In this document: positions 1,517 through 25,053 of the stretch, one piece after another | Numbering within the stretch: the stretch's first letter is position 1 | Layout of the letters: each line of letters begins with the position of its first letter | Virus record (IMG/VR): IMGVR_UViG_3300004457_000015 | Location: 1 to 29,277 of that record | DNA: 29,277 nt | Direction: 5' to 3' (one strand) | DNA from: a virus | Position numbers and translations under genes: made by a program | The notes under the pieces: generated by a model | What the model was told of the DNA's origin: nothing | The model's input: the letters and a program-made list of their open reading frames with translations, nothing else | Database searches by the model: none

Positions 1517-1524
1517 TTACTTTA

Positions 1525-2751: not shown

Positions 2752-2768
2752 CGTTGTAGGTTTTTAGT

Positions 2769-2776
2769 TATTTATA
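2769..2776 (-). promoter_or_regulatory. T4-type late promoter (TATAAATA) for the 408-aa fibre gene
   Basis: Read on the minus strand the octamer is TATAAATA, the exact T4 late promoter box. It lies in the 27-nt gap between the stop of the giant gene (2779) and the ATG at 2751. The start of transcription would fall about 6 nt downstream, leaving a leader of only about 12 nt without a clear Shine-Dalgarno. No -35 element is expected for this promoter class, which depends on the phage late sigma factor gp55 and the sliding clamp. Confidence 0.75.
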
Positions 2777-2778
2777 TG

Positions 2779-5700
2779 TTATGGAAGGACTTCAGGATCG
2801 ATAATCTCTTCACCGTAATCAGCGAGATTTGGTGCTGTCCAGTCATCAGGAACTTCACTTTCAACTAACACATCAGGATTCTTGTAACTACTACCACCAG
2901 AATTAACTTCCACTGTAGAAATACCTACGATTGCCTTAATCTGTGCGTTGAATCCACTAATAGAGTCAACTCTCACGACAGGTCGTGAAGTATAACCAGA
3001 ACCTGGTGCAGTAATGCTAACGGTTTCAATAAATCCACTAGTAAGAACTGCTGTAGCTTCGGCATTTTGTCCGAATACAGACCCAAGATAATCGAATGTA
3101 ATCAACGAGTTAGACGACTCAATAACTGCAACCTCGCGGTCCTCAGTTTCACCTTCAATAGAAAGGAAATCGCCTGGTTCGATAGGAGGAACAACTTCCG
3201 AGGCATCAACGTCAGCTTCAGAACCAACATATGAGAATGCTACGAATGTGGAACCCACGCGAGGAATTTCAGAGAAGATAATCCTCGAACCAACAATACT
3301 AAAACCAACTCCAGGTTCTTGAATAACACCATTCAAGGAGACAATGATATTATTTTCTGGTCTGATGGTACTAGATCTAACACCATCTGTAAGTGTCAAT
3401 GAATAGAACACCTCATCTCTCTTGAGGTTAAATGATTGGCGTAAAGAATCAAACTCAAATCCAATATTATCCAGTTGTCTCAATTTACCAACATAGAATC
3501 CCGTAAAGGTAGATCCGATATCAGGAGGTTCAGCGAACTGAATCTTATCGGAGAATGCATTATATGCATTACCTGCACCAGGAGGTTGTAAAATACCATT
3601 GATAAAGATTAACATATGACCAGCAGGGTCAGGTAAATATGATGTTCCGTTATTGATAGTAAGATTGAAGGTAGTTTCTATACCATCAAATCCTTTAGAT
3701 GCTCTCTTGACGCGAGCATTTGAATTGACAAGATCTAGAATTACCGACTTATAATTGTCAGCGGCAATAACGTAATCATTTGCAGTCCAAGTTCCAACAA
3801 TTTCATTTAAGAAGAGACGCTTATTAATACCAACAGCAGTGATGTTATTAATTCTAGCTGATGCTCCACCCGCAACAGTGATTTTTGTAGATATTGTTGC
3901 AAGTGCTTCATAATTTACACCTCCTCCACCAGTACCAAAGTCTGCGATTTGTTCGGTGATTGCGAAATCCCCATCAATAGGCGCAATATAAACATAGTTA
4001 CTGACAGTATCAACTCCTGTAATAATAGCTCGCTTACTAGCATCCTTACCACCAACATACTTGTAAACATAATTGCCTACAGTGAAATCAGCGGCACTAT
4101 TTACACCCAAGCGAACATAACCACCCGAGATAATTCTATCTCCAATTGTAACGTCGAGTCCTTGATATGACTGAACTTCAAGGTATAAGTCAGTTGTGCC
4201 GCCATATACAACAGCGGTTTTATCAAAGACACCCAATAATGTCTCAGTATCTACAGTCAATCTACCACCAGAATTATCAAGAACTGCTGCTTCAGTTTTC
4301 AAGAATGCTGTAGGTTGTGCTGTTTGACCAGAAGTATAACCAAGGAAAGGAATATTATCAGTAAAATCACCTACAAGTTTAATAACATGTAGTCTATCTT
4401 CAATTGAACTCAACGTTGCCGTAGTAGTATTTGCCTGACCTTCAATAATATCAGAGATTTGCCAGGTTCCTGCTGTAACTTCAACATCCAGATACTTATA
4501 ATTTTCATCTTCATGGAATTGATATACTGTACCAGTTATAGTGGCATCACCCTGTTTCTGAACTGCTTCACCCATCGTGAATGGACCATCAGTAATATCC
4601 CCATCAATACGGAATCTCTTATAAACTTTAGCGATTTTCGCCTCATTTACATTGACTCTCTTAATTTCAGCATTGGTATCACTATACAAACCATAGAAGA
4701 AGTCTGCTCTACCAAGACCACCAGAAATTCCAGGAGGAACGTATGTAATGCCATATTCCTTAGATGGAACTACAATACCACTGTTTTGAGTGATACTAAC
4801 ATAATATGTTGCATTATCTAATTGCTGTCTGAAGAAGTCTATATTTTCTCTAGCAATTCTTAAGAATGGGTCGGTTTCATATCCCGCTCTCCAAGTAGCA
4901 TTATCAAATGCCAAGAATGTTGATTGTGGTGCTGGAGAAGTTAAGGTTCCGTCAAGTGCAGATTCTAGATATGATTCTAGGACTTCTAAAGTATATCTCT
5001 TAGCGTTATATTCTGAATTAGAATAGAATACCTCGCCACCAACAGATGTATACGCATCAAATGATCCCTTATTGAGTTTAGCACCCCAAAGATAAATGCC
5101 GTCATTACCATTTCCTGCAAATGTGGGGTTATTAGTAGGACCTCGCATGATAATTTGATTTCTGATACTACTAAATCCGAATGAGAATTCAATAGTTGCA
5201 TAAACTCTAAACCACCCATTACCATAAGGAATAACCGACACACCTGTAGGTTCTGTAGTAGCAACCTGGAATGTCAAATTATCTTGACCTGATACGCCAC
5301 CAATACTAACACCATCAATCAGTATTTCAGAATCCAGAATCCATTCGGAACCGCCATCAGTAATGGTAATTACTGCAGTATTCGGTGCGTTCTCATGGTC
5401 AATAACAATATCAAATACACCACCCAATCCACCAATTGATGAACCAGTAACTCCTGTATAAGTTCCTGTCATAGCAGTTCTGGTATTAACTGTAATTTCT
5501 TTAACAGTTAATAGTTCTCTGTTTTTAACAATGATTCCACCCTCAGGTTGGAAGATAGAACCAATATCACCATTGTTAAGATCGATATCAAAGAATAATC
5601 TCTGCTGACCAGCAGTTCCGATATCTAATGTTACGTCATATCTGACATTTTCATATTCACCCTTCTTAATGAAGGTAGATATTGTATAAGTTTGTGATTC

Positions 5701-8700
5701 GCCTTCACTAAAGGAACCTTCGTCAAAAGAGTTGGATGCATTATCAAATGTGAGACTTCCATCATCGAATGTATTGGAAGAAGATAGCGCATAATCTCTA
5801 AAGGTTATATGAGTATCATTATCAGCAGTTGCTCTTAGTTTATCTGCAGTAAGTGTGCCATCTGGTGATACCGCAGTATTAGCAGCATATGTTGTTCTAG
5901 TCTGACCCCAGTTAACTTGGAATGCTTCAGGATTAGTAAACAGGTTTGTAGTTGAGAATTCTCCTTCAATTGGAGAAGTAATCAATCTAGCATCAGCAAA
6001 TGTCTGAATATTACCAACATTAGTATAATAATCAAACTCAGCACCAACTCCACTAGCGTTGATGTCAGCAACCGTTCCACTAGTGCCTCCAGTTAAAGTA
6101 TCTGCATCAGCAAATAGTGTGCCTGTAATACTTCCAATAAAGATTACTGATTCAACATCCTCTAAGACAGTTGCGGTTCCACCACCACTAGAAGTAACAG
6201 TTTCTCCTTTAGCAAATCTTGCAGTATCAAGAACAACGTTAACGTTTGTGATCGTTGCTGCAGTATCAGGATTACCGCCACTAATCGTAACAGTTGGAGG
6301 AGTTGCAGGAACATATCCTCTACCACGTTCGGTAATAATGATATTTTCAAGTGCTCTTAAAGTGCTAAATGTTGCTGTGGGATCGACAGTTGTTCCAGAA
6401 TCAGAAGGGGAATTAGCGAAACTAAGAGTTACTGTACCTTCAAATTTCTTACTATTGCTTGCTAAACCAAGTCTAGTAACAGCATAGTGATCATATAAGA
6501 ATCCATCAGTATAAGTTGGTTGAATGATTCTAAATCGTGTTGCCTCAGTTTTTGCAGCAACAGGAACTGCTACAGTAACTGGAGTTAGTGTGGAGAAATT
6601 AGTGTAGTTTGCTGCACCACCATTAGAACCGCCGTAAATCAAGGTTGCAGCATCAGTCCAAGTACCACCCTGGTTAGTAGAATATTGGAACTTCAAGTCT
6701 TCATTATCACCAGGTGCAGAAGCACCATTAGAACCAGTACCAGCAATGACATATACTCTGATAGTGTCTAAGTTTTCGGTATTAGTATCAGATACTGTTG
6801 CTTCACGAGTACCACTTGCAGCGCCAAACTTAATATGTCTGACTCCAGTCTTAAATCCGCCAACACTACCAATAGCAGAACCACTATCGGTAACTTCAGT
6901 ACCACTACCAAATCCAATAAAATCATCAGCATCGAATACTCGACCATCATAGGTAAGAGAATCAACAACACCTCCCGAAATAGTTGCAGTAATACCATCA
7001 TTAAGAACATTAGATCCAGTCATGGTAACAACTGGAGGCATATCAAATCCAGAACCACCAGTATTAATAGTGATAGTATCAATTAAACCAGATTCCTCTA
7101 ATACCGCTGTTGCTGTTGCTGTAACTCCACCAGATACAGGTGCAGGGACTGTAACTGTAGGAGTGGTTCTATAACCAGCACCTGAAGTAAACTGCAGTTC
7201 ACTGATAACACCCTGTTTGGTAACAGAAATTCTTCTTGATTGCTGAGTATTAGCAGAAGTAACATCGGTAATTACAAAATCATGAGAGAGATTGTCGATA
7301 ATTCCATCAACATAATCATCATAAACCCAAGTGCCTACTCCAAACTCACTGTTAATTGTTAACGCAAGTTCTGTCTTGTAGTAATTTTTATTGAAGAGAA
7401 TCTGTTGAGCAGCATATCTACCTTTGATACCTGCAGGAGAAAGAATTTTGACTGCAATATCAATTAACTCACCAAACTTTGCTTTAACTGGTTCAATGTC
7501 AGTGACAGATATTGCATCACGATATGCAGATTCGGATGTATGTACTGCAGCATACTGCCCAGCAGATACTACGGTTCCAGCATTATAAAGAACATTTTCT
7601 ATAGCGGAAATGCCAAGTGCTCTCAATCTCTCAATTGCAAAAATTGTAGATGTTAACTGCTCTTCGATATGGTCAATAGAAAGATTTGCAGTCAAGTACA
7701 ATTCAATTGCTTCAATTGTACTATTAGTACCACCAGTTTGAAGGTCGGAAATAGCACTGAGGAGAATGAGTTTGAGATCTCTCTCACATTTTGTTTTACC
7801 TGCAGTTCCAACACCAGGATAATCGAATGCTCTATATGTAATACCATTTAAGATATAAGTAAACTCGGCATCGGTGAGTCCTGTTGCTTCAGAAGCAATA
7901 TATTCTTTGTTGAAGTATAATCTATCTGCTGCAGTTGCAAAATCAGCACCAGTAGGAGCAATAAGATCATTTATCTGAGTAACTAAAGTATCAATTGCAG
8001 ATTGAACATTTGCACAATCACCTGCATCATTTGTAATACCCCAATCACCAATAATTAATGCGGTAGTATTTGCAGAAGTTAAGTCACCAGTAATTGCTTG
8101 TTTGGAATAGAAACCTAGACGCTCATGAGCATAAACTGATTGGAATAACTGCAATCTAACATGCTGAATTTCATTATTATTACCTAGGTAGAACTTGCCA
8201 GCAGTAAGTGTCTTTTTATTACCACCATTTTCAATATCGCCAGCAATACCATCAAGAATTAATCCAAGGTCTTGCTTACATCTTTCAGTTCCAGAACCAC
8301 TACCATCAGTGTTTCTTGGCATATCCAGAGAAAGGTCTGGATATCTAGAAATCATATCTGCTGCTGCTTTATCAACAATTGCTGTCCTATTGTAACGAAT
8401 AAGATTTGCAGCATCACGGAATCTATATTGTGTAGATTCATCAATTTTATTAGTATAGAGAGTGTCGCTATCATTGAGGACATAATCGCCATCAAAGGGA
8501 ACTTCTAAGTATTCATCTACTGTAGCACCAATAAATTCAACAGTAGGAGCAACTCTAGTGATTGTTCCTAGGTGATCGACTGGGGTAGCAAGATTAGCGT
8601 TAGTTAAGGTATCAATTACGATATCAAGCAAATTATCTGCCGTGGTCTTAACATCAGCACAATCTCCTGTAGTATAATTTAACTTACTAATAGAATTGGA

Positions 8701-11700
8701 AGAAGCAGAAACAAATACATGAGTATATCTTTGACCCTCAGGAGAAATACCAACATTAACTGTAATTGTAGTAGCAGCTACTGCAGTAATAGCAAGAACT
8801 TTATTGTAGAAGGGGTCATCAATTCTAGGATATGAATGTTGAGTTTCATTATTATCAGAACTGCATGTAAAAGTAAGACCTCCTGCAGCAATAGAAATCT
8901 GGTCCGAAGTGGTTAAAGTATGACTACCAATGGTCAGAACCATTTCGCCCGTTGCAGAATCGTATGTTGCTCCTGTAGGAGTGAATTGCGAGTATACAGT
9001 ATTATCAGAATCTGTGAGAGTAGTATCAGTAAATTGTGATACTCCATGAGAACCAGATACACTCCAAAGAACATTATTGACAATATATGGAATAATATCT
9101 CCAACTTTATTGTATGCCCATACAGTTTCGTCAATTTCAGTCTCAACGTGGTTGAGTGTTATAGCATTAAGGTCTGTCCTGTCAACATAAAGTGCTGCAG
9201 CATCCCAAATATGATTATTTGAACCGTTACGAAGATCTTCAACAATAGATTGAACGATATCCTCAATGTCATCTTCACAATTTACATTACCACCTGGAAT
9301 TGTTAGAGAAGGATACTGTTGGGTTAGGAGGTAAACTGTTTCTTTAGCAATGAAGTTTTTATTCTTCTCTAATAAAGTTGCAGCATCCAAGTATCTGTGA
9401 GAATTTCCAGTAAATCCAGCAACTACTGCACTACCGTTAGCATCTGTGGTTGCTTTAATTGCATCATTGTTAAAGAATTCACCCTTAGTAAAGTCTTCAG
9501 TACCAGACCAGTCTTGGACAGATGTTGCTCCCTGAGATTCGTCAAAGTGAAGTAATAGTTTTGTATTTGTATCACCTTGGAACATGCCATTACGTGGAGT
9601 AAAGGCAGTAGCATAGCGACCAATATTGGAAACTCTGAATTCGTCAATGTATCCAGCAAAATTATTACTACCAGTGTAATCAGAACCAATATACAAAGGT
9701 CTAGTTGTTCCATAATTGGTGACATCAGCGGTGTCTGTACCTTGCTGTACACCATCCAAATACAGTCTAACAACACCTGCAGTTCTAGAGACTGCAACAT
9801 GATACCAAGTGTCTACTAGGAGCGTTGTAGTGCCATTGATAGTGATTCCACCATTAGTTCTATTGTACTGAATAGTATTGCCATTAAGAACCAACTGTGC
9901 TGCAGCATCACCAACCGCAGACCTAAAGTCGCAAATAACTTTTGTTCCTGCAGCAATGGTAGTTGTTTTGATGTAACATTCAACAGTGAACTCACCTGTA
10001 CCAAAACCAAAATTAGATGATGTTGCAATATCTAGATATTCATCAATAGGAATTGCGCCTACATTAACTGTAATTGTGGTAGCGGTAACTGCACTAATAG
10101 CACGAGCACTACCAGAGGCAGGATCACTAGAACGAGGATATGTGTAATTATTAGTATTATTATCAGACCCACAAGTGAATGTAAGTGTATTATCGGTAAT
10201 AGTTACTGTATCCGACGTGGTAAGTGCGTGCGAACCAATCTCTAACAATAAGACTCCAGTAAATGGGTCATATGTTGTTCCTGTAGCTGCAGTATATGTA
10301 AGAGACCCATCAGAAATAGAATCTGCAGTTCCACTTACAAATGCATGAACATCAGTTCCTTTAGACAGAGCAAGAGAACCAGAACCATACTTTTTATTGT
10401 AAGTATTGATTTGAGCACCAGCATTAAAGTTGACTGTATGAGCATCTGTTCCAGACGTTAAACTATTACCAACTTTACCAAGGTAAACCAAACTTTGTGC
10501 TTGATTAAATCCAATAACTTCTGCTTTAGTGTCTCTAGTACGAATAGTTTGTCCAACGCTAAAGAATCCATTTCCGAATTCATTAGTTAATGAAAGTTTT
10601 CTTACAGAAAGATCTTCATTATCAGTGAAATTGCCACTTTCGTTACCAAATTCTAATTTGTAGTTTCTAATGTACTCACCTTCGGTCAAAGCACCTGAAG
10701 CAGTATCATAAGGAATTACATAATGATTTACATTTTCATTTTCAGGGAATTTGCTATTGAAATCGGTTACATTATCACCAAATTCAACAATAGAAACTTG
10801 AGACCTTGAGACATCATCAATAACAACATTAGGATATGTAATAGAAGCAATTCTATCAAACAACAGACCGAAGAATGTAGAACCTTCAGAAATTTCTACT
10901 TGTTCAACTACTTCTAAAGTAGTTGGGTCTGTATACGGTGCGGTAGATGTGATTCTAGCAACAACACCAGATTGTGAAGCAATAATAACATCATTCAATT
11001 GAATATCAAATAATCCAGGAGTGGATTGATATGTACCTGTAGTCTTGCTTAAAATGAGGTCATTAGTAATAGTAATATTTGTGCCGTAGAAAGGAGAATT
11101 CTCTTGATGTTGTAAAGAAGTGGTTCCTAACTGCGCTCTAGTAACATTGATAGTCGTAGATTCTGAATTAGTAGTAATAGAATTAACTTCTACAATCTCA
11201 CTTCCGATTTGATAGTTATCACCAACTACAAATGCATCGCTTGGAACAGCTGCTGGATTATTTAAATCCGAATCTGTTGCAATAACTTCCAAATCGGTAG
11301 TAGAAATACCTACAGTATAGCGCAACTTAGCAACAGGTGTTTCTGCACCTTTCTCAAGATTGACATCTTCAACAGTAGCAATATCACCTGTCAAGTTCTT
11401 AATAGATTCGCCAAAGATAAACAACCCATTATTCACAACTGCTGTCGAACTTGCAAATAATGCACTAAATCCAGTAACATTACCCAGAACCAGTTCACTA
11501 GCAAGGAATTGAGTTCCTTCAGTAAAGAATCCAAATATTGTATTACCAACAACTGAGGTTACTGTGAGTCTAGACCCAGAACTAACACCATTAATAGAAT
11601 TACCTACAAGAGGGAAAATACCACTGATACTAGTAAATTCGATACTAATAGTAGCAATCTGAGAAATTTCAACATTTACATACTTAACACTTGCGGGAGG

Positions 11701-14700: not shown

Positions 14701-17700
14701 GACTTTATTATTGGTTGAATCTACTGATGTAATATATCCACTATTGACAAAAGTGCTTCCTGTACGAAGTTCAAGTTTTGACCCTACTGTAAAATTGAAT
14801 CCCTGGTTAATAGTTAACTCTTGAATATTGTCAATTTTAACTGTATTGAATGTTTTGAAGTAGTATCTATCGGCAACTGATGCCTCAACCTTAAGTTTTT
14901 GAGAACCTGGAGATGGAATTGTAGCGGTTCTAGAACTCCAAATATCTCTGGAGTACGTGACAGTTGTGGTATTTTCTGTCATAGTTGTTGCAACTTCGCT
15001 GTAATCAAGCGACTGCAATCCTGGGTCACCTAAACTGTAACCAACATTAACCATTGTAATTGCATTTTCAGTTACAGGTGTAACTGCAGTTCTGGTCCAT
15101 CCAAGTTGAGTATTTGCGCCAGCTGCTGTTACACCCAATCTAGTGGCATCAGAATTTTTATCAGTCTTTAATACAAATCCATTATAAGCAATAAGATCGT
15201 ATCTATATTGCTGTTCAGTAAACCAAGTAGTATCGGTCCAGGTATATGCAAGAGGAACTGCATCTGCAACAGGAAGAGCTAAAGGATTTCCAAAATCTGT
15301 AGGGGCAGTAGGAAGTACATAACGATTCCTAATGCGAATATCATCAAGGAAGAATTGACCTTGATTATCAGAATTGAAAGCACCAGATGTAGTAAATCCT
15401 GGAGCATTACCAAAATGAATATCCTTAGAACCTAATTGAGTATTAGCAACAGTACCACTAATAACTTCAATGCCATTTACATAAGCTTTAAATAGATTTT
15501 CCGTTTTAGTTAGTGATATTAATTGCCAAGTGTCATTAGCAAACAATCCTGTTTGTGACGATACTGCAGCAACTCCTCCACTAAATTTATTGGTATTATC
15601 AGTTACAACTAATTCTAATCTACCTTCGTTTGCACTACCATCAGTATTGTAGTATAACCAAACACCACCTGTTGTATCTTCACCGTCACCAATCGCAAGT
15701 AAAGTATTGTAGTCTGCATTGAGAGTATCGGCATTGCTATTGTCATCATCCTTGTAGATAAGGAAATCGATAGTAAAATCGCCACCAAGATTGTTACCTA
15801 GACTAGAACCAGGAATTTTTGCTGCCGAATTTTCCCATGTAGAACTCTGTCCAGTTTGGAATCCATATATCTTAAGATATCCACCAGTACCATCTACAGC
15901 AATAGAACCATTCAATCCAAGAGTGGTCATTGTATGATGACCTGTCGTATCAGAAAGATCGGTATCAAACTCGAAGATACCCTCATTCCTATTCCAATAC
16001 GTTTGACCACCAATGTAGACATCGCCCGAATTATCAACATTCAAGGTTTCGGCTACAATACCTTCAACATTATTTTCAGTAAAACTATTAACTGTATGAG
16101 TTAAGATTTTACCTTTATAATCAATTTTAACATTAGCAACAGTTTGTTTTTCTGTAGTATTATCTACCCTGGTGTAAACTAGGTTTAAATGTCCAAAAAT
16201 ATCAATTTTTGCTCTTGGCACCAAGTTAATATCTCTTCCAGGAACAGCATACGAATAACTCCAAATACTAACACCATCAGAAGATTTGAATTTACCAACC
16301 CAGAAACTTTCCCTATTAATATCATTAGATTTTAATTGGAGAGTCGCAGAGACGTATAATTCATCAAATTCGTCAATTGCAATACTAGGATTTAATAGAC
16401 TGTATACGTTATTAGAGACTTTTCTAATCCAAGAAATATCAATACTACTAATCCCTACTAATGCTTTACCAAAGACGAGATCTTTATCTGCCTCAGCAAC
16501 CCCTGTAGATGTCTCCATTAAGAAGTATGGTTGACCATCAGACCCTAAAATAATATCAAGAACCTTTTCATTCTGGGTATTAGATGTAAGTTTTCTCTTT
16601 ACACTAAAGGTTCCTGCAGAATCAATTACTGCAATGAAACCATCGTATGGATTTGTAGAGTTTGTATTTGTATATCCAGAGATAATTAAACTATCAGTTC
16701 CATATCTAAGAATCTTAGTTACATTATCAGAACGAGTTCCTCCAGAAATACCAGCATATGCTCTTTGCCACTCTAAAGTTGCAGACAATCCATCATTAGA
16801 TTCTGTATACTTACAAATTATAATATCGGGATTATATGCATCTAAAATAGCAGCATTTGGTTTATTAATACCTACGACCCAAATAGTTTTATTCTCGACG
16901 TAAATACTTTGAAATTCTGTGTAGGCAAGACCCGAAGAAAGTTTTAAAGTTTTATTCCACTCACTAACACCAGATACAGAAAGTTTTGAGATAATAGCAA
17001 TTGTATCTCCACTACTATCCGTAGTTTTACCACAAATGTAGGATTCTTTACTTTCAGAAATAAAAGTGTCATTAATAATTACATCATCTTCATTCGATAT
17101 CGAAGTGATATAATAATCAGATTTTTTGAATACTTGAGGATGAGAAAGTATAACTCTTGGGTTGGTTGTATATCCATTGCCAGAATTTACAATGGTAACC
17201 TTGCTAACAGAACCAACTGAATCAACAACTGCTTCCAACTCTCCACTTACCCCATCACCATCAATAATAATAGTTGGGGGAATATCTTCATTATAACCAC
17301 TACCAGATTGAGTGATATTAATCGTCTCAATGCCTTTAAGTTGTCTGACTACAAATTGCTTATTTGTGGTCTCTATATTTTCAGTATAATCAACAAAAAT
17401 ACTATCTCCAATAATAAGATTATGGGGAACCGATGTTTGAATAACACCATAGTTTTCTGAATTTTTATATTCAAAATCATAAGATGTGATAGATTCACCT
17501 TTAATCTTAGAAACTCTAGCAGATGCACCACTACCACCTGTTTCAGAATTATCAAAAATTAGTTTATCGTCAACTTGATAACTTACACCAGCATTTTCAA
17601 TTACAAATCCCGTTACAGATGCATTTTCAAATTTACTAATTGTTTCAACTTCGATATCAACTTTAGAATCAGTTTTTACCTTAGGGAAATAATCATAAAT

Positions 17701-20700
17701 TTGAAGAGGAGGTTCTTCTAAAATTTGATCGGGGTCATCAGTCTCATCTTGAGAGATGATCCCATCTCTATTTTCATCTTCAACATCAAATAGAAGTAAT
17801 GTGCCATCTTCCAATGTTAATGAATTTGTAGACGCATTGGGAGTTCTTTCAACATCAATATCAACATTTTCATAAGGATCGCGATAACGTACAACCCCTG
17901 TTGGAATATTCTGCTGAATAGCAGATTCGGAAAGATTTAAATTATCTACAATAGAATTGAAACTAGGACCAATAATATAGGGATATGTAGCATTACCTGC
18001 TTCAGTAGAATCAATAGTAACAAAATAGCAATATGTGCCGTCTGGAAATTCGGGTGTTTTGCAGAAACGACCGTTATATTGGTCTAAAGCTCCCAAACCA
18101 AAGACGTATTCATAATCTTCAACAAAAGTTCCTGCAGGATCGACACTTAAAAGGGAACCTTCAGTTCTAACAGGAGATGGATTTGAAGAACTAAGAACTA
18201 AATCAGACTTTAATCTGTAAGAAGTAGAGATTCTAATAACATTGGATGATTGATCTGTAGGATCTTCATACCCGTAGGGTCCGTATATTGGAGTTCCATC
18301 AAATGCCCAACCAATAATAGGAGAGTGATCATTATTAGATTCTAATGATGCTTCAGTGATAACACCATTAGTACTAACTAGATTATCCCCAAGAATGAAT
18401 CTGAGTCTTTGTGGATTTGATAAATGTGCATACTCTCCACCATACTGGTTATTATATCCTTCAAACACTGCCCCTTGAGAACTATCAAAAGTAGCAGATT
18501 CTTGTAGGTTATATGTCCATTGGAATACGTTTGCATCAAATTGTGCTTCACTACCAACAGAAACTAGAGTAATGACCGTAGTTCCTTGAACATAGTTAAT
18601 GCCCCTGTTTAAAAGTTCAATACTAGTAACTCTACCAGCATTTTCCCCAGCAGTATCAATAATTGCTCTAGCCTCAGCACCAAAACCAACACCTTGGATT
18701 TGAACTTCTGGTGCTGTAGTATATCCAGAACCAGCAGAAATAATTGCTACAGAAATAATCCTTCCATTATTGATAATGGCTTGAGCAACAGCACCAGAAC
18801 CAGAACTCAATGATACTGTAGGTTGAGAAGTGTATGAACTACCTTGAGATGAAATATTGACTTCTTTGATAGGACCACGAACAGATGCTGTTCCAGTTGC
18901 GCCAGTACCTTCACCACCAACAATAGTAATAAATGGTTGTGAAGTATATCCAGAACCACCATTAGTGATTAAAATGTTAGAAACTTGTCCTTTTGTAATG
19001 ATAGCAGTTGCCGCTGCACCACTTCCTCCACCACCAACAATGGAGATGAGAGGAGAACTTGTATATCCAGAACCAGGAGTATCTACAGAAATATCGCTGA
19101 TAGATCCATTTACAACAACAGTTGCCGCTGCACCACTTCCTCCACCATCAGAAATAGTTAAACTTGGTGGAGATGCTGCGTCATAATTTTTACCTGCATT
19201 TACAATCCCAATGGATGTTAAGGGTCCAAAAGTTTTTGATAATACAGACTTATAAGACCAAACAGATACACCATTAACCCAAGTACCAATAGGACCTGGA
19301 GCAATTAAACTCTTAGTTGAAATTGTAGTTGTAGATTTTGGAAATCTATTCAGTTTACGTTGATTCCCTGGTAACAAAGCAGACCCAGGAAAAGGTCCAA
19401 TATTATAATTGGGAATACCCGTTGAAGCAACATAAACATAATTATCATTAAAGAATGAATTCAGTACGTTTGTAGTGTATACAGAAATATTTTTATTAAT
19501 TGCAGTATCTGTAGACTTGCCTTTATTCAAGTCAACAGACACCAAAATATTTCCTTGAGGAGCAACCAACGCTGGTTGTGGAAGGAGATACTGGAAGACA
19601 AGATCGCTATCTCTAGAAGTTACTTCAAATGTTCCATTATAAATGATTGGATTTGCACCATAAATGGTAACTTGATCTCCGACTAATACTCCATGAGGAT
19701 TATTACAAGTTACAGTTGCCGATTGATTATTATCTCCACCAAAAGTGATTCCTGAAATACTAATCAGTTTTTTGACATTATACAACCAGGTTGTCAATAA
19801 AGATTCCTGACTAGTGCCGCCAAGTTTGGCAACAGTCAATTTATCACCTGGAAGATAGTAAGAACCACTGTCAGTAAGATTTGTTCGTTGGGCATCAACA
19901 ATACCAACAATGTTCATTACAACTTCTTGAAGCGTTCCTTTGTTCAGATACACTCTGAAATTGGAAGTAACTTCTGTTGCAGAATCCCAGACTTTAGGAT
20001 CTGCTCCAATCGAACCAGCAAAGTTTCTAGTACACTCAATAAACTGGTTTAAAGATTTTTCTTTATAACGAACTACTTCTGTGGTGCCAATTACAAATTC
20101 ACCATTTCTTTCTGGCCAACCAATAGTAGAGTCAACAGTAATAATACTGGTTTCTCCATCTAAAGGTTCTGCAAGTTTTGTTTTGTAAGGAACAATGAAG
20201 GAACCTGCAATAGTTTCTTCAGAAAGAACTAATTCATAGATTGTAGTATTTGAAGTATTGATTGCGATGTAATTTTCTACAAGAGCACTCGCATCTTGTA
20301 CATTCACGTCAGCAATATCTGCAGATTGTGAAATTAGCGCATCTTGAATATTTCTAGGATCACCACTAACTAAGGTTGCACGCAAAATGGTGTTAATAGA
20401 CCAAGTTGCTGCTGATGGTTTGATAATTTGGTCTTTAGGATAAGAAACATCAACTGTTTCTCCGTACAATAACTTAAATAAGTATGCAATACTAAATTCA
20501 GTACCTTTTGTTTCATAGAATCTTTTAATAGTCTTAATTGATGTTCTAACATCAATTGACTTATAGTCAAGTTCTGGTACGTCAGGAAGATATTGTTCGA
20601 CATACTTGTCAAGTAATCTTTTTATAAACAGTGCATCTAGACATTTTACTTCTGCACCTACTTCAGCAGTGGCAGCAGCAGTATTTGCAGAAAATACTGC

Positions 20701-22593
20701 ATTACCTTCTTCATCATACGATGTAATGCCACTAGATGCCCTTGCACACCCAATGAACTGTGCTTTGTTATAGTTTCTACCCGATTGGAGGACAGCAAAC
20801 CCTGTAATCTCATTTACACCAATCTCACAAGATGCTTGTCCTTCAGGTGGACTTTGAATAAGAACTACAGGGGGATTTGAACTATCATATCCAGAACCAA
20901 AGTTAGTGATGTTGATATCAGTAATTCTACCATTAAAGATAGACGCTACTGCAGTAGCACCTGTACCAGTTCCACTATCAATAATATACACAGAAGGTAC
21001 ATCTTCATAACCATTGCCACCGTCAAGTAGTTCAATGGATGTAAGTCTTCCGTCAATATCAATTACACTCTCTAATATTTGAGCACCTGTTGGTTGAATC
21101 AGTTTAATTCTAGGTGTAGTGGTGTATCCTTGTCCACGATTATTGATGACAACACCAGTTAATTTTCCATCAGTAATTACCGTAGTAAACGATGGATTAA
21201 TTGGATTACTTCCAGTTGGTGCATCAATATAAATTAGTGGTGGTGTACCATATCCTTCACCTTCAGAGATAATAGGAATTGCACCAGAAATACTCCCATC
21301 AACAATAGTTACAGGACCTACTTCTGCTCCACCTGGTTGCTTGAATGTAATTCTTGGAATGAATGTATATCCGCTACCAGAACTTTCCAGGTCTAATTGG
21401 GAAATACTTCCATCAACTACTGTTGCTTTGATTGAAGCATCAACAGAATCTGCCAGAGTTGGCGATTCAATGTTTACAATAGGTGGATTTGTTTCACTAT
21501 ATCCCCTGCCACCGCTAAGAAGTTGTAAATTTTTAATTCCATTAATTAATGCTTCTGCTGCACCACCTAACCCAACATCTCCAGTAGAGTTGACTGTGAT
21601 TTTAGGAGGATTTGCAAATCTATATTCAGAACCCGTATTATTAATTTTAACAGCGGTAAGAGCCCCATTATCATCAATTCTTGCATACGCAGATGCTCCA
21701 GAACCAAAAGAGGGAATCGGTGCTTCAATAGAAAGTAAAGTTAAACTTCTGCCGCTAAGAGGAGCAAAGTTTCTAAAGATGAATAAATCTTTATCAAAAA
21801 CAAAATCTTTTTTGGGTACAAGTAACTCATTATCATAATATGCAAGAATATATTCATCGGACTCAGGAATATATGGTAATGAATTATTAGTAATTCTAAA
21901 TTCTTTGACACCATCACCAAAAGATGGCGAAATGTTGTCTAGAGTAGCAATACTATTTTCTACAAAACCGCTGAGAAAATTGATACTAGATAATTCTTCG
22001 CTATCTGCAGGAACAACTGCTCTTGGTGCGGTAGTAAATACAATATTCCCATTGTCTACAGTGAAATCTACGTCGGGAATGAGATATTCATTATAAATCC
22101 GAACAATGAGATGTTTTGCACTTGGAGGAACAATTGGTCTATCTTGAGAAGTTAATTCAAAACTTCTAGTAGTGCCATCAAATAATCTAAGTGGACTTTG
22201 TAGTTCTACCCATTTTAATTTAACCTGGTCGTAAGAAATGCCAGGACCTAATGAAATATTTGGTGAGGATTGACTTTTTTCATAAAAAATAACTTCATCA
22301 CCAATCAGAATGCTTCCATTCTCTTCTAAGAAAACTTCGACGTTTTCAACAGAAATTACATCATCTGTTGTACCAATAACTTGAGAAACCTTCGTTTTTC
22401 CATCTAAGATATCAACATCTAATTTGTCGATATCTAAGTAATTTAAAAAGTTGTTAAGAATGTTTTGTCCTAATCCCGTTTTCTCCTGGGATTTGTAGTA
22501 ATACTCAATAAATTTCGAGAACAATTCATATTCAGACCCAATAAACCCAGGGAGTTGATTAGGAATTGCTTGAGAGACCTTATTAATACTCAT
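2779..22593 (-). CDS. Giant (6604-aa) gp7-like baseplate wedge / multidomain adhesin protein
   Basis: One uninterrupted frame of 6604 codons. Residues 14-33 (LPGFIGSEYELFSKFIEYYY) and about 675-720 (RFYETKGTEFSIAYLFKLLY, then VSYPKD) are hallmarks I associate with wedge proteins encoded next to gp6 in T4-like phages. Position after gp6 also fits T4 gene 7, though T4 gp7 has only about 1030 residues. In order: tail modules 130-290, Gly-Ser-Gly-Tyr repeats 293-616 and 1120-1335, YHYH domain 1420-1545, EF-hand loop 1606-1617, beta-propeller 1822-2205, LamG-like 2240-2430, a YYYQDFSYAV motif near 3455, a second LamG 4190-4340, helical repeats 4400-5110, jelly roll 5235-5378, carbohydrate-binding-like module 5545-5855, tail modules 6292-6455. 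The start is 4 nt after the gp6 stop with no obvious Shine-Dalgarno, so translation is probably coupled. Wedge role inferred from N-terminus and order; receptor or glycan binding inferred from modules. Some phages may encode these parts as separate genes. Confidence 0.93.
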   Translation of the reverse strand: MSINKVSQAIPNQLPGFIGSEYELFSKFIEYYYKSQEKTGLGQNILNNFLNYLDIDKLDVDILDGKTKVSQVIGTTDDVISVENVEVFLEENGSILIGDEVIFYEKSQSSPNISLGPGISYDQVKLKWVELQSPLRLFDGTTRSFELTSQDRPIVPPSAKHLIVRIYNEYLIPDVDFTVDNGNIVFTTAPRAVVPADSEELSSINFLSGFVENSIATLDNISPSFGDGVKEFRITNNSLPYIPESDEYILAYYDNELLVPKKDFVFDKDLFIFRNFAPLSGRSLTLLSIEAPIPSFGSGASAYARIDDNGALTAVKINNTGSEYRFANPPKITVNSTGDVGLGGAAEALINGIKNLQLLSGGRGYSETNPPIVNIESPTLADSVDASIKATVVDGSISQLDLESSGSGYTFIPRITFKQPGGAEVGPVTIVDGSISGAIPIISEGEGYGTPPLIYIDAPTGSNPINPSFTTVITDGKLTGVVINNRGQGYTTTPRIKLIQPTGAQILESVIDIDGRLTSIELLDGGNGYEDVPSVYIIDSGTGTGATAVASIFNGRITDINITNFGSGYDSSNPPVVLIQSPPEGQASCEIGVNEITGFAVLQSGRNYNKAQFIGCARASSGITSYDEEGNAVFSANTAAATAEVGAEVKCLDALFIKRLLDKYVEQYLPDVPELDYKSIDVRTSIKTIKRFYETKGTEFSIAYLFKLLYGETVDVSYPKDQIIKPSAATWSINTILRATLVSGDPRNIQDALISQSADIADVNVQDASALVENYIAINTSNTTIYELVLSEETIAGSFIVPYKTKLAEPLDGETSIITVDSTIGWPERNGEFVIGTTEVVRYKEKSLNQFIECTRNFAGSIGADPKVWDSATEVTSNFRVYLNKGTLQEVVMNIVGIVDAQRTNLTDSGSYYLPGDKLTVAKLGGTSQESLLTTWLYNVKKLISISGITFGGDNNQSATVTCNNPHGVLVGDQVTIYGANPIIYNGTFEVTSRDSDLVFQYLLPQPALVAPQGNILVSVDLNKGKSTDTAINKNISVYTTNVLNSFFNDNYVYVASTGIPNYNIGPFPGSALLPGNQRKLNRFPKSTTTISTKSLIAPGPIGTWVNGVSVWSYKSVLSKTFGPLTSIGIVNAGKNYDAASPPSLTISDGGGSGAAATVVVNGSISDISVDTPGSGYTSSPLISIVGGGGSGAAATAIITKGQVSNILITNGGSGYTSQPFITIVGGEGTGATGTASVRGPIKEVNISSQGSSYTSQPTVSLSSGSGAVAQAIINNGRIISVAIISAGSGYTTAPEVQIQGVGFGAEARAIIDTAGENAGRVTSIELLNRGINYVQGTTVITLVSVGSEAQFDANVFQWTYNLQESATFDSSQGAVFEGYNNQYGGEYAHLSNPQRLRFILGDNLVSTNGVITEASLESNNDHSPIIGWAFDGTPIYGPYGYEDPTDQSSNVIRISTSYRLKSDLVLSSSNPSPVRTEGSLLSVDPAGTFVEDYEYVFGLGALDQYNGRFCKTPEFPDGTYCYFVTIDSTEAGNATYPYIIGPSFNSIVDNLNLSESAIQQNIPTGVVRYRDPYENVDIDVERTPNASTNSLTLEDGTLLLFDVEDENRDGIISQDETDDPDQILEEPPLQIYDYFPKVKTDSKVDIEVETISKFENASVTGFVIENAGVSYQVDDKLIFDNSETGGSGASARVSKIKGESITSYDFEYKNSENYGVIQTSVPHNLIIGDSIFVDYTENIETTNKQFVVRQLKGIETINITQSGSGYNEDIPPTIIIDGDGVSGELEAVVDSVGSVSKVTIVNSGNGYTTNPRVILSHPQVFKKSDYYITSISNEDDVIINDTFISESKESYICGKTTDSSGDTIAIISKLSVSGVSEWNKTLKLSSGLAYTEFQSIYVENKTIWVVGINKPNAAILDAYNPDIIICKYTESNDGLSATLEWQRAYAGISGGTRSDNVTKILRYGTDSLIISGYTNTNSTNPYDGFIAVIDSAGTFSVKRKLTSNTQNEKVLDIILGSDGQPYFLMETSTGVAEADKDLVFGKALVGISSIDISWIRKVSNNVYSLLNPSIAIDEFDELYVSATLQLKSNDINRESFWVGKFKSSDGVSIWSYSYAVPGRDINLVPRAKIDIFGHLNLVYTRVDNTTEKQTVANVKIDYKGKILTHTVNSFTENNVEGIVAETLNVDNSGDVYIGGQTYWNRNEGIFEFDTDLSDTTGHHTMTTLGLNGSIAVDGTGGYLKIYGFQTGQSSTWENSAAKIPGSSLGNNLGGDFTIDFLIYKDDDNSNADTLNADYNTLLAIGDGEDTTGGVWLYYNTDGSANEGRLELVVTDNTNKFSGGVAAVSSQTGLFANDTWQLISLTKTENLFKAYVNGIEVISGTVANTQLGSKDIHFGNAPGFTTSGAFNSDNQGQFFLDDIRIRNRYVLPTAPTDFGNPLALPVADAVPLAYTWTDTTWFTEQQYRYDLIAYNGFVLKTDKNSDATRLGVTAAGANTQLGWTRTAVTPVTENAITMVNVGYSLGDPGLQSLDYSEVATTMTENTTTVTYSRDIWSSRTATIPSPGSQKLKVEASVADRYYFKTFNTVKIDNIQELTINQGFNFTVGSKLELRTGSTFVNSGYITSVDSTNNKVYLAVNNNSWTNDTNIGNLATVQFNEQSTYGLVGIIPSDINDILYTFPQVVNTTPGTFDIDLSTYDAPSIIGGTNNLDEFAHFKDYADDDYSIRIDEVSGSSAFVVGSVVNVSSGDVSYNSAYSTIQITNLTGVTKITLIANLSKILQVTAVSNSDSVYVISDSLHYLTVGQQMFIDGNPTRTVNSLTYDEYDGSFPVERVISPIEFTYKLPTVAVSSPADSAALVNFFIKSPVLKMYYGHQYLFDLSHSSLVGGNLSFSKDPLYKLEYSFNSIERVGTPGVTGGGAPTPTVKLKVEQDVITNISYYFDPSRTGADSPVIGDSYLDVTFSPYVGTFVVTDTSGGTITSGDNVFEFKLLNQPEGAATILNSTYTTSSKKAVGSIGDIRIVNSGGFYNKLPIINTIQSTRNIERVSINAPGTEYAVNTYSGVPISGDGEGGLVEIVVADGTDDEGGAIPGQIQRVTVTSPGKGYTTATIDIESISGILGAGLTGSGAELEVVIPSFGTGASIFTLGTEIGKIKNLKNNNFGFDYPHDYTLRPEISFPINAQLTNTSILDNIAVTDPGSGYTQAPTVVITGGGGSGAIAEATIKNGRLSTIEVKDPGSGYSSEPTVQLKSSFNYTVNQDLGLLQFAFPHGIQNGAEITLAVVDIGDGAELPIASGAVGRLTTTNTYYAIAGAANSLEDDQLKIAITSANAELGDALSFVNPGTGRQQVLTFSFGGAAVGNVITSTFLEGELVYQGDALETATATGYVSTNSGWQVGPRILKIVDYTGTFNLNNSVTGVISKSSGNISDLKIARGVLEVGPITKTTGQFIDDVGKPSEIVQKIQDSYYYQDFSYAVKSSVSISEWKDILIRNVHPASFKVFGELSINEFTTIPNKVTDFELTKSVELANEAIVPNIQNFTLVEPIYEDFNNSEILFRQKRLTSSENILTSVVQRIDDVSNLFDGVRTAFPLTVNNGQSVIANANQLMVILNGVVQTPDTSFQIQSDSIVFAEAPQPPASVKYVNVEISQIATISIEFTSISGIFPLVGNSINGVSSGSRLTVTSVVGNTIFGFFTEGTQFLASELVLGNVTGFSALFASSTAVVNNGLFIFGESIKNLTGDIATVEDVNLEKGAETPVAKLRYTVGISTTDLEVIATDSDLNNPAAVPSDAFVVGDNYQIGSEIVEVNSITTNSESTTINVTRAQLGTTSLQHQENSPFYGTNITITNDLILSKTTGTYQSTPGLFDIQLNDVIIASQSGVVARITSTAPYTDPTTLEVVEQVEISEGSTFFGLLFDRIASITYPNVVIDDVSRSQVSIVEFGDNVTDFNSKFPENENVNHYVIPYDTASGALTEGEYIRNYKLEFGNESGNFTDNEDLSVRKLSLTNEFGNGFFSVGQTIRTRDTKAEVIGFNQAQSLVYLGKVGNSLTSGTDAHTVNFNAGAQINTYNKKYGSGSLALSKGTDVHAFVSGTADSISDGSLTYTAATGTTYDPFTGVLLLEIGSHALTTSDTVTITDNTLTFTCGSDNNTNNYTYPRSSDPASGSARAISAVTATTITVNVGAIPIDEYLDIATSSNFGFGTGEFTVECYIKTTTIAAGTKVICDFRSAVGDAAAQLVLNGNTIQYNRTNGGITINGTTTLLVDTWYHVAVSRTAGVVRLYLDGVQQGTDTADVTNYGTTRPLYIGSDYTGSNNFAGYIDEFRVSNIGRYATAFTPRNGMFQGDTNTKLLLHFDESQGATSVQDWSGTEDFTKGEFFNNDAIKATTDANGSAVVAGFTGNSHRYLDAATLLEKNKNFIAKETVYLLTQQYPSLTIPGGNVNCEDDIEDIVQSIVEDLRNGSNNHIWDAAALYVDRTDLNAITLNHVETEIDETVWAYNKVGDIIPYIVNNVLWSVSGSHGVSQFTDTTLTDSDNTVYSQFTPTGATYDSATGEMVLTIGSHTLTTSDQISIAAGGLTFTCSSDNNETQHSYPRIDDPFYNKVLAITAVAATTITVNVGISPEGQRYTHVFVSASSNSISKLNYTTGDCADVKTTADNLLDIVIDTLTNANLATPVDHLGTITRVAPTVEFIGATVDEYLEVPFDGDYVLNDSDTLYTNKIDESTQYRFRDAANLIRYNRTAIVDKAAADMISRYPDLSLDMPRNTDGSGSGTERCKQDLGLILDGIAGDIENGGNKKTLTAGKFYLGNNNEIQHVRLQLFQSVYAHERLGFYSKQAITGDLTSANTTALIIGDWGITNDAGDCANVQSAIDTLVTQINDLIAPTGADFATAADRLYFNKEYIASEATGLTDAEFTYILNGITYRAFDYPGVGTAGKTKCERDLKLILLSAISDLQTGGTNSTIEAIELYLTANLSIDHIEEQLTSTIFAIERLRALGISAIENVLYNAGTVVSAGQYAAVHTSESAYRDAISVTDIEPVKAKFGELIDIAVKILSPAGIKGRYAAQQILFNKNYYKTELALTINSEFGVGTWVYDDYVDGIIDNLSHDFVITDVTSANTQQSRRISVTKQGVISELQFTSGAGYRTTPTVTVPAPVSGGVTATATAVLEESGLIDTITINTGGSGFDMPPVVTMTGSNVLNDGITATISGGVVDSLTYDGRVFDADDFIGFGSGTEVTDSGSAIGSVGGFKTGVRHIKFGAASGTREATVSDTNTENLDTIRVYVIAGTGSNGASAPGDNEDLKFQYSTNQGGTWTDAATLIYGGSNGGAANYTNFSTLTPVTVAVPVAAKTEATRFRIIQPTYTDGFLYDHYAVTRLGLASNSKKFEGTVTLSFANSPSDSGTTVDPTATFSTLRALENIIITERGRGYVPATPPTVTISGGNPDTAATITNVNVVLDTARFAKGETVTSSGGGTATVLEDVESVIFIGSITGTLFADADTLTGGTSGTVADINASGVGAEFDYYTNVGNIQTFADARLITSPIEGEFSTTNLFTNPEAFQVNWGQTRTTYAANTAVSPDGTLTADKLRATADNDTHITFRDYALSSSNTFDDGSLTFDNASNSFDEGSFSEGESQTYTISTFIKKGEYENVRYDVTLDIGTAGQQRLFFDIDLNNGDIGSIFQPEGGIIVKNRELLTVKEITVNTRTAMTGTYTGVTGSSIGGLGGVFDIVIDHENAPNTAVITITDGGSEWILDSEILIDGVSIGGVSGQDNLTFQVATTEPTGVSVIPYGNGWFRVYATIEFSFGFSSIRNQIIMRGPTNNPTFAGNGNDGIYLWGAKLNKGSFDAYTSVGGEVFYSNSEYNAKRYTLEVLESYLESALDGTLTSPAPQSTFLAFDNATWRAGYETDPFLRIARENIDFFRQQLDNATYYVSITQNSGIVVPSKEYGITYVPPGISGGLGRADFFYGLYSDTNAEIKRVNVNEAKIAKVYKRFRIDGDITDGPFTMGEAVQKQGDATITGTVYQFHEDENYKYLDVEVTAGTWQISDIIEGQANTTTATLSSIEDRLHVIKLVGDFTDNIPFLGYTSGQTAQPTAFLKTEAAVLDNSGGRLTVDTETLLGVFDKTAVVYGGTTDLYLEVQSYQGLDVTIGDRIISGGYVRLGVNSAADFTVGNYVYKYVGGKDASKRAIITGVDTVSNYVYIAPIDGDFAITEQIADFGTGGGGVNYEALATISTKITVAGGASARINNITAVGINKRLFLNEIVGTWTANDYVIAADNYKSVILDLVNSNARVKRASKGFDGIETTFNLTINNGTSYLPDPAGHMLIFINGILQPPGAGNAYNAFSDKIQFAEPPDIGSTFTGFYVGKLRQLDNIGFEFDSLRQSFNLKRDEVFYSLTLTDGVRSSTIRPENNIIVSLNGVIQEPGVGFSIVGSRIIFSEIPRVGSTFVAFSYVGSEADVDASEVVPPIEPGDFLSIEGETEDREVAVIESSNSLITFDYLGSVFGQNAEATAVLTSGFIETVSITAPGSGYTSRPVVRVDSISGFNAQIKAIVGISTVEVNSGGSSYKNPDVLVESEVPDDWTAPNLADYGEEIIDPEVLP
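3229..3720 (-). repeat. C-terminal pair of F-D-G/S tail modules in the giant protein
   Basis: Residues about 6292-6455. Two tandem modules: one has FDGIETTFNLT, MLIFINGILQPPG and KIQFAEPP; the other has FDSLRQSFNL, IIVSLNGVIQEPG and RIIFSEIP. Related single modules occur at about residues 130-190, 222-290 and 3570-3645, so the unit brackets both ends of the protein. Confidence 0.75.
5029..5961 (-). other. Phage-type carbohydrate-binding-like module in the giant protein
   Basis: Residues about 5545-5855. NLFTNPEAFQVNWGQ, AVSPDGTLTADKLRAT, YTISTFIKKGEYENVRYDV, GNGWFRVYATIEF and DGIYLWGAKLNKGSFDAY reproduce the order of beta-sandwich modules common in phage tail proteins (N-L-h-x-x-S/P-E-x-F, A-P-D-G-T-x-T-A-D-K-L, G-W-x-R-V, W-G-A-x-L-x-x-G). 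The module is longer than usual because of an insertion of about 100 residues near 5640-5780. Confidence 0.75.
6460..6891 (-). other. Jelly-roll (galactose-binding-like) domain in the giant protein
   Basis: Residues about 5235-5378. TIRVYVIAGTGSNG, DLKFQYSTNQGGTWTDAATL, a VAVPVAAKTEATRFRI strand and DHYAVTRLGL resemble beta-sandwich modules such as reelin-type or galactose-binding-like domains. Fold-level call only. Confidence 0.5.
7264..9396 (-). repeat. Four alpha-helical repeats in the giant protein
   Basis: Residues about 4400-5110. Units begin at about 4402 (LLEKNKNFIAKETVYLL), 4726 (LIRYNRTAIVDKAAADMI), 4887 (LYFNKEYIASEATGL) and 5063 (ILFNKNYYKTELALTI). Three have a Tyr-Pro and then a conserved Cys followed by acidic/Leu residues (NCEDDIEDIV, RCKQDLGLIL, KCERDLKLIL), a D-(L/I)-x-x-G-(G/S)-x-N step and an (A/I)-x-x-(F/L)-Y-L/V helix. 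The fourth is truncated. This helical stretch is unlike the beta-rich remainder. I do not recognise a named family. Confidence 0.75.
8719..9030 (-). repeat. Duplicated beta module, copy B
   Basis: Residues about 4522-4625 of the giant protein. It carries GATYDSATGEMVLTIGSH, LTFTCSSDNN and AATTITVNVG, aligned with copy A. Each copy retains one Cys followed by Ser/Asp/Asn. Confidence 0.85.
9574..10026 (-). other. LamG-like domain 2 in the giant protein
   Basis: Residues about 4190-4340. FGTGEFTVECYIK, TWYHVAVSRTAGVVRLYLDG and FAGYIDEFRVSNIGRY are classical LamG/Laminin_G_3 strands. LLLHFDE follows near residue 4350, which often ends this module in marine phage tail proteins. One copy of the duplicated beta module lies just before it. 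Confidence 0.85.
10030..10329 (-). repeat. Duplicated beta module, copy A
   Basis: Residues about 4089-4188 of the giant protein. Shares with copy B (8719-9030) the series ATYDxxTGxxxLxIGSHxLTTSD, LTFTCxSDNN, YPRxxDP, then AIxAVxATTITVNVG. The pair flanks LamG domain 2 and helical repeat 1. Confidence 0.85.
15304..15876 (-). other. LamG/concanavalin-like domain 1 in the giant protein
   Basis: Residues about 2240-2430. GGDFTIDFLIYK, then DNTNKFSGG, WQLISLTKTENLFKAYVNG and FFLDDIRIRN follow the strand order of LamG-type lectin folds (FTIEFW, W-H-h-A, hYVNG, hhDDhRI). This fold usually binds glycans or proteins. Confidence 0.7.
15979..17130 (-). other. Beta-propeller-like region (SBBP-like repeats) in the giant protein
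   Basis: Residues about 1822-2205. Repeats of about 50-60 residues alternate WxxxL/Y strands (GVSEWNKTLKL, ATLEWQRAYAG, ISWIRKV, SIWSYSYAV) with G-x-x-Y/L-I-S-G-x-T style strands (DSLIISGYTN, ELYVSATLQL, DVYIGGQTYW). This is the look of bacterial seven-bladed propellers of the SBBP type. Blade number not resolved by eye. Confidence 0.6.
17743..17778 (-). other. EF-hand-like calcium-binding loop in the giant protein
   Basis: Residues 1606-1617 read DENRDGIISQDE. This matches the 12-residue loop D-x-(D/N)-x-D-G-x-I-x-x-x-E at positions 1, 3, 5, 6, 8 and 12. It sits in an acidic stretch after the YHYH domain. Flanking helices are not obvious, so it may be a dockerin-like or stand-alone loop that stiffens a linker. 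Confidence 0.6.
17959..18336 (-). other. YHYH-type domain inside the giant protein
   Basis: Residues about 1420-1545. DHSPIIGWAFDGTPIYGPYG is the hallmark of the YHYH family. It is followed by LDQYNGRFCKTPEFPDGTY and YPYIIG in the family order. The namesake Tyr-His-Tyr-His is Tyr1521-Cys-Tyr-Phe here. The biochemical function of the family is not known to me. Confidence 0.85.
18589..19236 (-). repeat. Gly-Ser-Gly-Tyr beta-repeat block II (protein-level repeat)
   Basis: Residues about 1120-1335, with six units closer to each other than in block I: NAGKNYDAASPPSLTI, TPGSGYTSSPLISIVGGGGS, NGGSGYTSQPFITIVGGEGT, SQGSSYTSQPTVSL, SAGSGYTTAPEVQI and LNRGINYVQ. The first units share nearly identical GGGGSGAAAT linkers, which suggests recent tandem duplication. 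Further single units occur near residues 1750-1815, 3030-3120, 3185-3235 and 6520-6575. Confidence 0.82.
20374..20601 (-). other. gp7-like wedge signature region of the giant protein
   Basis: Residues about 665-740. Contains YLPDVPELDYKSID, RFYETKGTEFSIAYLFKLLY and VSYPKDQIIKPS. Phage proteins at this genome position commonly carry the order aromatic-x-x-Lys-Gly-Thr-Glu, then Leu-Phe-(K/R)-x-Leu-(Y/F), then Tyr-Pro-Lys. It ties the giant gene to the baseplate wedge rather than to a stand-alone adhesin. Confidence 0.65.
20746..21717 (-). repeat. Gly-Ser-Gly-Tyr beta-repeat block I (protein-level repeat)
   Basis: Residues about 293-616. About eight degenerate units, each with a strand, a turn of the type (S/G)-G-x-G-Y-x-x-x-P-x-(I/V), a Gly/Ala-rich stretch (GTGTGATAVAS) and a strand ending in G-x-(I/L)-(T/S)-x-(I/L). 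Examples are ESSGSGYTFIPRITF, NNRGQGYTTTPRIKL and TNFGSGYDSSNPPVVLI. The block separates the two gp7-like segments and looks like an insertion. Confidence 0.8.
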
Positions 22594-24634: not shown

Positions 24635-25053
24635 TATTCGGGTCTCTGTAAAACAAATGAAATCGATTCGTTGATCGGTATACCAATTATCTTATAAACT
24701 ATAGTAACAGAAATTTTGTTGTTCTCATAAATTGGAACAATATCAATTTTATTGAGACGAACTCTTTTTTCAAATTGTTTTATAGTAATCTCAATTTCTT
24801 CTCTAATTGCATCTATAGTAAATGCATCTAGGGGTTCAAATAATAATTCAGAAACCCTAGATCCAATCAAGGGTTGAAAAGGTTTTTCACCAGGAACAGT
24901 CATAATTAAATTTTTGACTGATTGCTTAATCGCATTTTCATTAGTAAGAACACTCACGTCATCAGTAAATTTATTTCTAGCAAAAGAAATACCAAAATCT
25001 TTAAAAGACTTTGAGTATTTTACTTCTTTTGACGTGATTTTCTTGAGGGTCAT
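24634..25053 (-). CDS. gp25: Baseplate wedge subunit gp25 (gp25/TssE family)
   Basis: 139 residues, near the usual 130-140. gp25 sits at the base of the sheath, links the wedges to the tail tube and starts sheath assembly; TssE is its type VI secretion counterpart. Visible family features are FGISFARNKFTDDVSVLTNE, NAIKQSVKNLI, the MTVPGEKPFQPLIGSRVSEL block and LLFEPLD. The C-terminal QFEKRVRL (residues 93-100) aligns with the family's Glu-Pro-Arg motif but reads Glu-Lys-Arg. The last residues fit the family's final strands. A late promoter box lies 22 nt upstream of the ATG. The stop codon overlaps the gp6 start by one base. The start at 25053 is chosen because MTLKK follows the late promoter leader directly. 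Confidence 0.96.
   Translation of the reverse strand: MTLKKITSKEVKYSKSFKDFGISFARNKFTDDVSVLTNENAIKQSVKNLIMTVPGEKPFQPLIGSRVSELLFEPLDAFTIDAIREEIEITIKQFEKRVRLNKIDIVPIYENNKISVTIVYKIIGIPINESISFVLQRPE

Follow-up and report, generated by a model that had tools for sequence, protein, structure and literature searches.

The stretch of DNA analyzed here (the window; 29,277 bases from an IMG/VR virus record) contains a frame of 6604 codons on the minus strand, running uninterrupted from its ATG to its stop (22593..2779). The earlier note had described one unbroken frame directly after gp6, and this is borne out, with no internal stop and the ATG 4 bases past the end of gp6, although the note was silent on the strand. 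The product has 6604 aa, with a computed mass of 707 kDa and a computed pI of 4.4. The window has no N bases, and a search for tandem DNA repeats in it found none. Its minus-strand gene order is phrog_699, phrog_719, PAAR, gp25, gp6, the giant frame, gp9 and phrog_708. The baseplate wedge genes gp25 (24634..25053; PF04965) and gp6 (22598..24634; phrog_219, E 2e-227, and PF21379) precede the giant gp7-slot virion protein (2779..22593), which matches PHROG 701 end to end. It is followed by a gp9-like wedge/tail-fibre connector (1525..2751; phrog_677, PF07880) and by the next wedge subunit, cut by the window end (2..1516; phrog_708), all of them on the minus strand. The gene between phrog_719 and gp25 (25239-25808) encodes a PAAR-type spike-tip protein.

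The order 25-6-7 (25-6-giant-9 in the window) holds in the window and in the relatives checked, and short relatives of 896-1006 aa occupy the same slot. Two profiles were compared with the PDB, one of aa 610-940 from 17 phages and one of the N-terminal halves of the short relatives, and T4-type gp7 was the only credible match of both (E 9e-6 and 3e-5, respectively), over a short match of about 30-100 residues. The match with E 9e-6 corresponds to a gp7-type domain (aa 610-940; 19774..20766, minus strand) with the motif FYxTKGT..LLYGE at aa 692-712; a PF23786 match at aa 676-723 stays below the cut-off. A helical segment (aa 1-62; 22408..22593, minus strand) begins all relatives and aligns in the correct order, below threshold, with about residues 647-682 of T4 gp7. 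Slot order and profile matches thus support the earlier reading of this part as gp7. However, the first 750 residues find no support as one wedge unit, since aa 130-610 (20764..22206, minus strand) form a beta-repeat insertion, with GxGY repeats and two NG-type modules, which is missing in the short relatives. In the alignment of these short forms, the N-terminal 120 residues and the equivalent of aa 610-940 adjoin directly. The AlphaFold model of aa 1-950 gives a confident beta fold for aa 130-610, but pLDDT stays under 50 in aa 1-62 and 659-734, and no gp7 came up in Foldseek. Such a model may be what is expected if the gp7 core helices fold only together with gp6.

T4 gp7 (PDB 5HX2/5IV5) and the giant share the FYxTKG domain, the order of this domain and the N-terminal helical segment, and a position after gp6 and ahead of the later wedge genes. 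They differ in that T4 gp7 has 1032 aa, with extra domains on the N-terminal side and the motif at 731-759, whereas in the giant the motif at about 692-712 is followed by some 5700 residues. Unlike in T4, there is no separate gp8 in this window. The gp7 domain ranges more widely than cyanophages, being found also in Sinorhizobium, Agrobacterium, Pseudomonas and Methylophilales phages.

The giant frame belongs to a kind of protein already known, PHROG 701, which fills the gp7 slot in Kyanoviridae. All six overlapping pieces of the window protein match this PHROG in order, from position 1 to 6135 of 6136, and aa 1-780 have matches in 475 phage records, the closest relative being ACG-2014g with 89.9% identity over these residues. 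Giants are found in the same slot in ACG-2014g (7019 aa), S-RIM50 (6405 aa), Syn9 (6076 aa), P-SSM7 (7124 aa) and P-SSM4 (7312 aa), and more distant phages have shorter proteins there (Melnitz-1, 896 aa; phiN3, 1006 aa; ME01, 1942 aa; S-PM2, 3048 aa; others, 4107-4225 aa), so that the lengths form a graded series from T4-like to giant. The records of several relatives are already annotated as "gp7" or "baseplate wedge initiator", and the giant chain, whose length and direct link between wedge and adhesins the earlier note had singled out as most unusual, is the standard gp7 of the phage family. In CsCl-purified virions of S-SZBM1, 71 peptides of a 6619-aa, 724-kDa homologue were detected, covering 13.5% of it (PMC9146016, Table 1); the S-SZBM1 frame as translated here has the same length, 6619 aa. 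The Kyanoviridae giants (YP_009133644 of ACG-2014g, YP_009302175 of S-RIM50, YP_214641 of P-SSM4 gp7, and S-SZBM1_208) lie after gp6 as in the window, and have the same N- and C-terminal parts, the same kinds of modules and a similar length (about 6000-7300 aa), but module number and order differ from the window protein in aa 4000-6000.

Along the chain, a YHYH domain (aa 1355-1530; 18004..18531; PF14240, E 3.9e-33), a laminin-G/concanavalin-like domain (aa 4192-4323; 9625..10020; PF13385, E 1e-19) and a Reelin-subrepeat-B-like beta domain (aa 5255-5372; 6478..6831; PF21471, E 2.4e-13) were recognized, all on the minus strand. Identity to S-RIM50, P-SSM7 and Syn9 is mostly 55-85% over aa 1-4000, with a dip to 41-62% at 2001-2500, and 68-84% in the conserved C-terminal part (aa 6250-6604; 2782..3846, minus strand). 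Between aa 5001 and 5750 it falls to 8-54%, and the large insertions of the relatives all lie within aa 4251-5000 (415 residues in ACG-2014g; 642, 104 and 218 in P-SSM7). The profile of identity and insertions against four relatives thus delimits a variable region with gain and loss of modules at aa 4001-6000 (4594..10593, minus strand); conservation in aa 750-4000 and 6250-6604 is close to that of the wedge part. Since low identity and insertions are restricted in this way, the exchangeable part comprises about 2000 residues and not 5800, and the earlier view that most of the 5800 residues beyond the wedge part look like receptor- or glycan-binding modules is not supported. The variable region is likely the host-facing part of the giant. 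It also contains a pair of domains 45-48% identical to each other (aa 4071-4211 and 4513-4651; about 8641-10383) with the motif TC[GS]SDNN.

Three modules of the variable region, missed by the earlier note, are related to phycobiliproteins: M1 (aa 4396-4498; 9100..9408), M2 (aa 4707-4880; 7954..8475) and M3 (aa 4869-4990; 7624..7989), all on the minus strand. PF00502 (Phycobilisome) matches at about aa 4391-4440 with E 1.5e-7, over the cut-off in the context of a 1101-aa piece, the tightly cut M1 being below it; M2 alone gives E 0.0048. When PF00502 was run over the whole window record, only M1 and M2 were matched, and among 14 control genomes a single one, Synechococcus elongatus, had a match. 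In the window protein, iterated searching recovered these three copies (4396-4498, 4707-4830 and 4869-4990), and the phage loci gathered at that stage yielded 256 copies. PF00502 matches are nearly full-length in S-H38 (14-139 of 155) and S-BM3 (20-151 of 155). A profile of 41 M2-M3 sequences from the window and its IMG/VR relatives had 28 PDB matches to E 1, and 27 of them are phycobiliproteins or engineered derivatives. For a profile of 23 M1-type modules, the best 60 of 95 PDB matches to E 0.1 are all phycobiliproteins (top E 2.8e-6). In single pairwise hhalign comparisons against 107 CpcB/CpcA-type sequences, M2 reached 45.8 and M3 35.0, while the maxima of 100 block-shuffled controls were 21.5 and 22.4 and the reversed sequences gave 15.5 and 16.1.

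The fold points in the same direction. A template-free AlphaFold model of M2-M3 built from phage sequences only has a pTM of 0.77, with the caveat that phycobiliproteins were in the training of AlphaFold. Compared with 350,542 PDB chains, its best 50 matches are phycobiliproteins without exception, for the most part chains of phycoerythrin and phycocyanin, with TM up to 0.72 by target length; the E-values of single Foldseek matches are modest (0.02-0.1), and it is the consistency of the list that is striking. From sequence profiles and predicted structure, the homology of M1-M3 to phycobiliproteins, together with a phycobiliprotein fold, is well supported. With beta-type phycobiliproteins (CpcB, CpeB; PF00502) the modules share the predicted fold, the helix motifs and the Cys84 and Asp87 positions, to which M1-type modules add the PGGN loop and M2 a Cys at the Cys153 position. 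They differ in having only 16-25% identity and no recognized N-terminal helical hairpin, in being embedded in a virion protein, in their inserted domains and in lacking a known chromophore. The best PDB sequence match of the M2/M3 profile (E 0.0025) is smURFP, an allophycocyanin-derived fluorescent protein that is also without the N-terminal helices but is an engineered stand-alone protein binding biliverdin. In the window protein, the second TC[GS]SDNN domain sits within M1, ahead of the presumed last helix of the module. In the ACG-2014g giant, the 415-residue insertion relative to the window protein (about aa 4434-4844) splits M1 between the first helices and the Cys84-like helix.

In the HMMER and hhalign alignments, the Cys of the phage modules falls on the bilin-binding Cys84. 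Of 79 non-redundant modules, 73 have a Cys84-like and 75 an Asp87-like residue, and all three window modules have both (the Cys at aa 4439 in M1, 4772 in M2 and 4936, within CERD, in M3). A second Cys (aa 4860 in the window) is invariant in M2 (41/41). In local hhalign comparisons of 33 two-Cys modules with 55 beta-type sequences, it lines up with Cys153 of CpcB, and both share the context GIT..GDC.

Modules were found in 364 of 50,697 phage records, all of them cyanophages except one marine single-cell virus, and they occur in varying numbers in the giant gp7 and the tail-fibre proteins of hundreds of cyanophages. We found no relevant report of phycobiliprotein-like domains in phage virions in the open-access literature, most subscription journals being outside the search, and the occurrence of a repeated phycobiliprotein-derived module among the virion proteins of a very large marine phage group appears to be undescribed.

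We suggest that a Macariavirus-like cyanophage (Kyanoviridae) has its gp7 equivalent in this frame, with a conserved body and a variable region carrying three phycobiliprotein-homologous modules, an explanation that we consider very probable as a whole. Judging from the matches and the gene order, the giant is probably held in the wedge beside gp6 by its T4-gp7-type core (aa 1-62 and about 610-940). The body, to about aa 4000, and the C-terminus would be structural, as their conservation suggests, and the region of about 4000-6000, with its three modules, would face the host. Most likely, a phycobiliprotein domain of the cyanobacterial host was captured and then duplicated, serving the tail as a compact helical unit; the sequences are too diverged for an easy tree of the direction of transfer. 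With the Cys84/Asp87 pair kept, some copies may bind a bilin, but we think that the modules are mostly an exapted scaffold, with scaffold or adhesin spacer as the default role. Tail architecture would then have been built from a light-harvesting protein of the host, and the modules connect two questions, namely what the substrate of phage-encoded phycobilin lyases is and why adsorption of some cyanophages requires light.

One alternative concerns the cysteines, which could be structural, forming disulfides within or between modules, so that the phycobiliprotein ancestry would be real and bilin binding lost at once. We give this reading a considerable chance, somewhat short of even. Both M2 cysteines are invariant together, a Cys153-like residue never occurs without a Cys84-like one (0/72), and virion surface proteins are extracellular, all of which is consistent with disulfides. 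On the other hand, 34 modules have the Cys84-like but no Cys153-like residue, so a Cys84-Cys153 pair within the module cannot be the whole reason for the conservation, and the Asp87-like residue is conserved equally.

It is also conceivable, but in our view unlikely, that the modules are working biliproteins carrying bilins on the conserved cysteines, perhaps loaded by the phage T-type lyase CpeT, in which case the tail would be coloured and possibly light-responsive. Conservation of the Cys84- and Asp87-like residues, aligned on the bilin site, would fit this, as would the invariant second Cys of M2, given that T-type lyases serve the class of sites at the Cys153 position (PMC10452541, review). 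CpeT was found in 16 of 25 phage records tested, all 16 being among the 21 with modules and none among the 4 without, and in S-PM2 and ACG-2014h cpeT lies 1.5-2 kb upstream of a module-bearing tail-fibre gene. The association is nevertheless confounded by relatedness and host type, five module carriers are without CpeT, and cpeT is far from the giant in most phages. A search for CpeS near the modules gave only ME01, a phage in which no module was detected, and a bilin reductase is present in only 3 of 17 phages.

Loss of the Cys84-like residue is commoner in Prochlorococcus phages (9 of 26 modules) than in Synechococcus phages (1 of 35), as would suit a bilin site, with Fisher P of 0.001 by module and 0.013 by phage, both confounded by relatedness. 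Six of the nine losses come from the sister phages P-SSM3 and P-SSM4, in which all three modules are without the Cys84-like residue and a search for the Cys153-like one found none. Against a bilin site, however, P-HM2, which grows on MED4, keeps every module cysteine, and the Pro-to-Cys loop is shorter in M1-type modules, which are also without the Arg pair before the Cys. The associations with CpeT and host type are leads and not evidence of a chromophore. Since some cyanophages need light for adsorption (PMC5082946), a coloured tail might bear on this step; that cyanophage tails have bilin-loaded modules, with CpeT as the loader and the chromophore serving stability, attachment or light-dependent adsorption, is a speculation to which we give little probability.

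An artefact of assembly or annotation, or a chain cleaved into separate functional proteins, is about as improbable. PHROGs include an N-terminal-only (1266) and a C-terminal-only (3007) family, which would agree with separate products, and some records thus carry the giant split. The frame itself is not an assembly accident, because a separate IMG/VR contig (3300004448_000031) has 100% identity to the window protein in both stretches compared, with aa 1 placed at 7831 and aa 4690 placed at 21898, a spacing of exactly 4689 codons. This second contig, together with the intact frames of the isolates ACG-2014g, S-RIM50, P-SSM7 and P-SSM4, rules out the misassembly that the earlier note had allowed for, and the S-SZBM1 virion peptides were assigned to a 724-kDa product. 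The baseplate gene run of S-H38 includes, two genes after the giant, an annotated subtilisin-like serine protease (locus 17778-19430), a candidate for processing the giant of this phage.

Convergence of helical bundles, for which only the 16-25% identity speaks, is very improbable and was rejected, since the shuffled and reversed hhalign controls fail, the specificity is database-wide in both sequence and fold, and the ungapped DAxxxI..N...I...A motif, PxLxxPGGN and CxRD are all in register.

Two records of module-bearing proteins deserve mention. In S-PM2 (NC_006820.1, 168556-170625 and 173312-173383), 16 tRNA genes are annotated inside the module-bearing tail-fibre frame, but ARAGORN placed none of the 16 inside it, its six finds being upstream (locus 602-1430); the record thus appears to have misplaced tRNA coordinates. 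In P-RSM6 (NC_020855.1, 103907-129628), a 25.7-kb gene annotated as a virion structural protein (about 8570 aa) has six modules, and its product is longer than any giant gp7 seen in this analysis.
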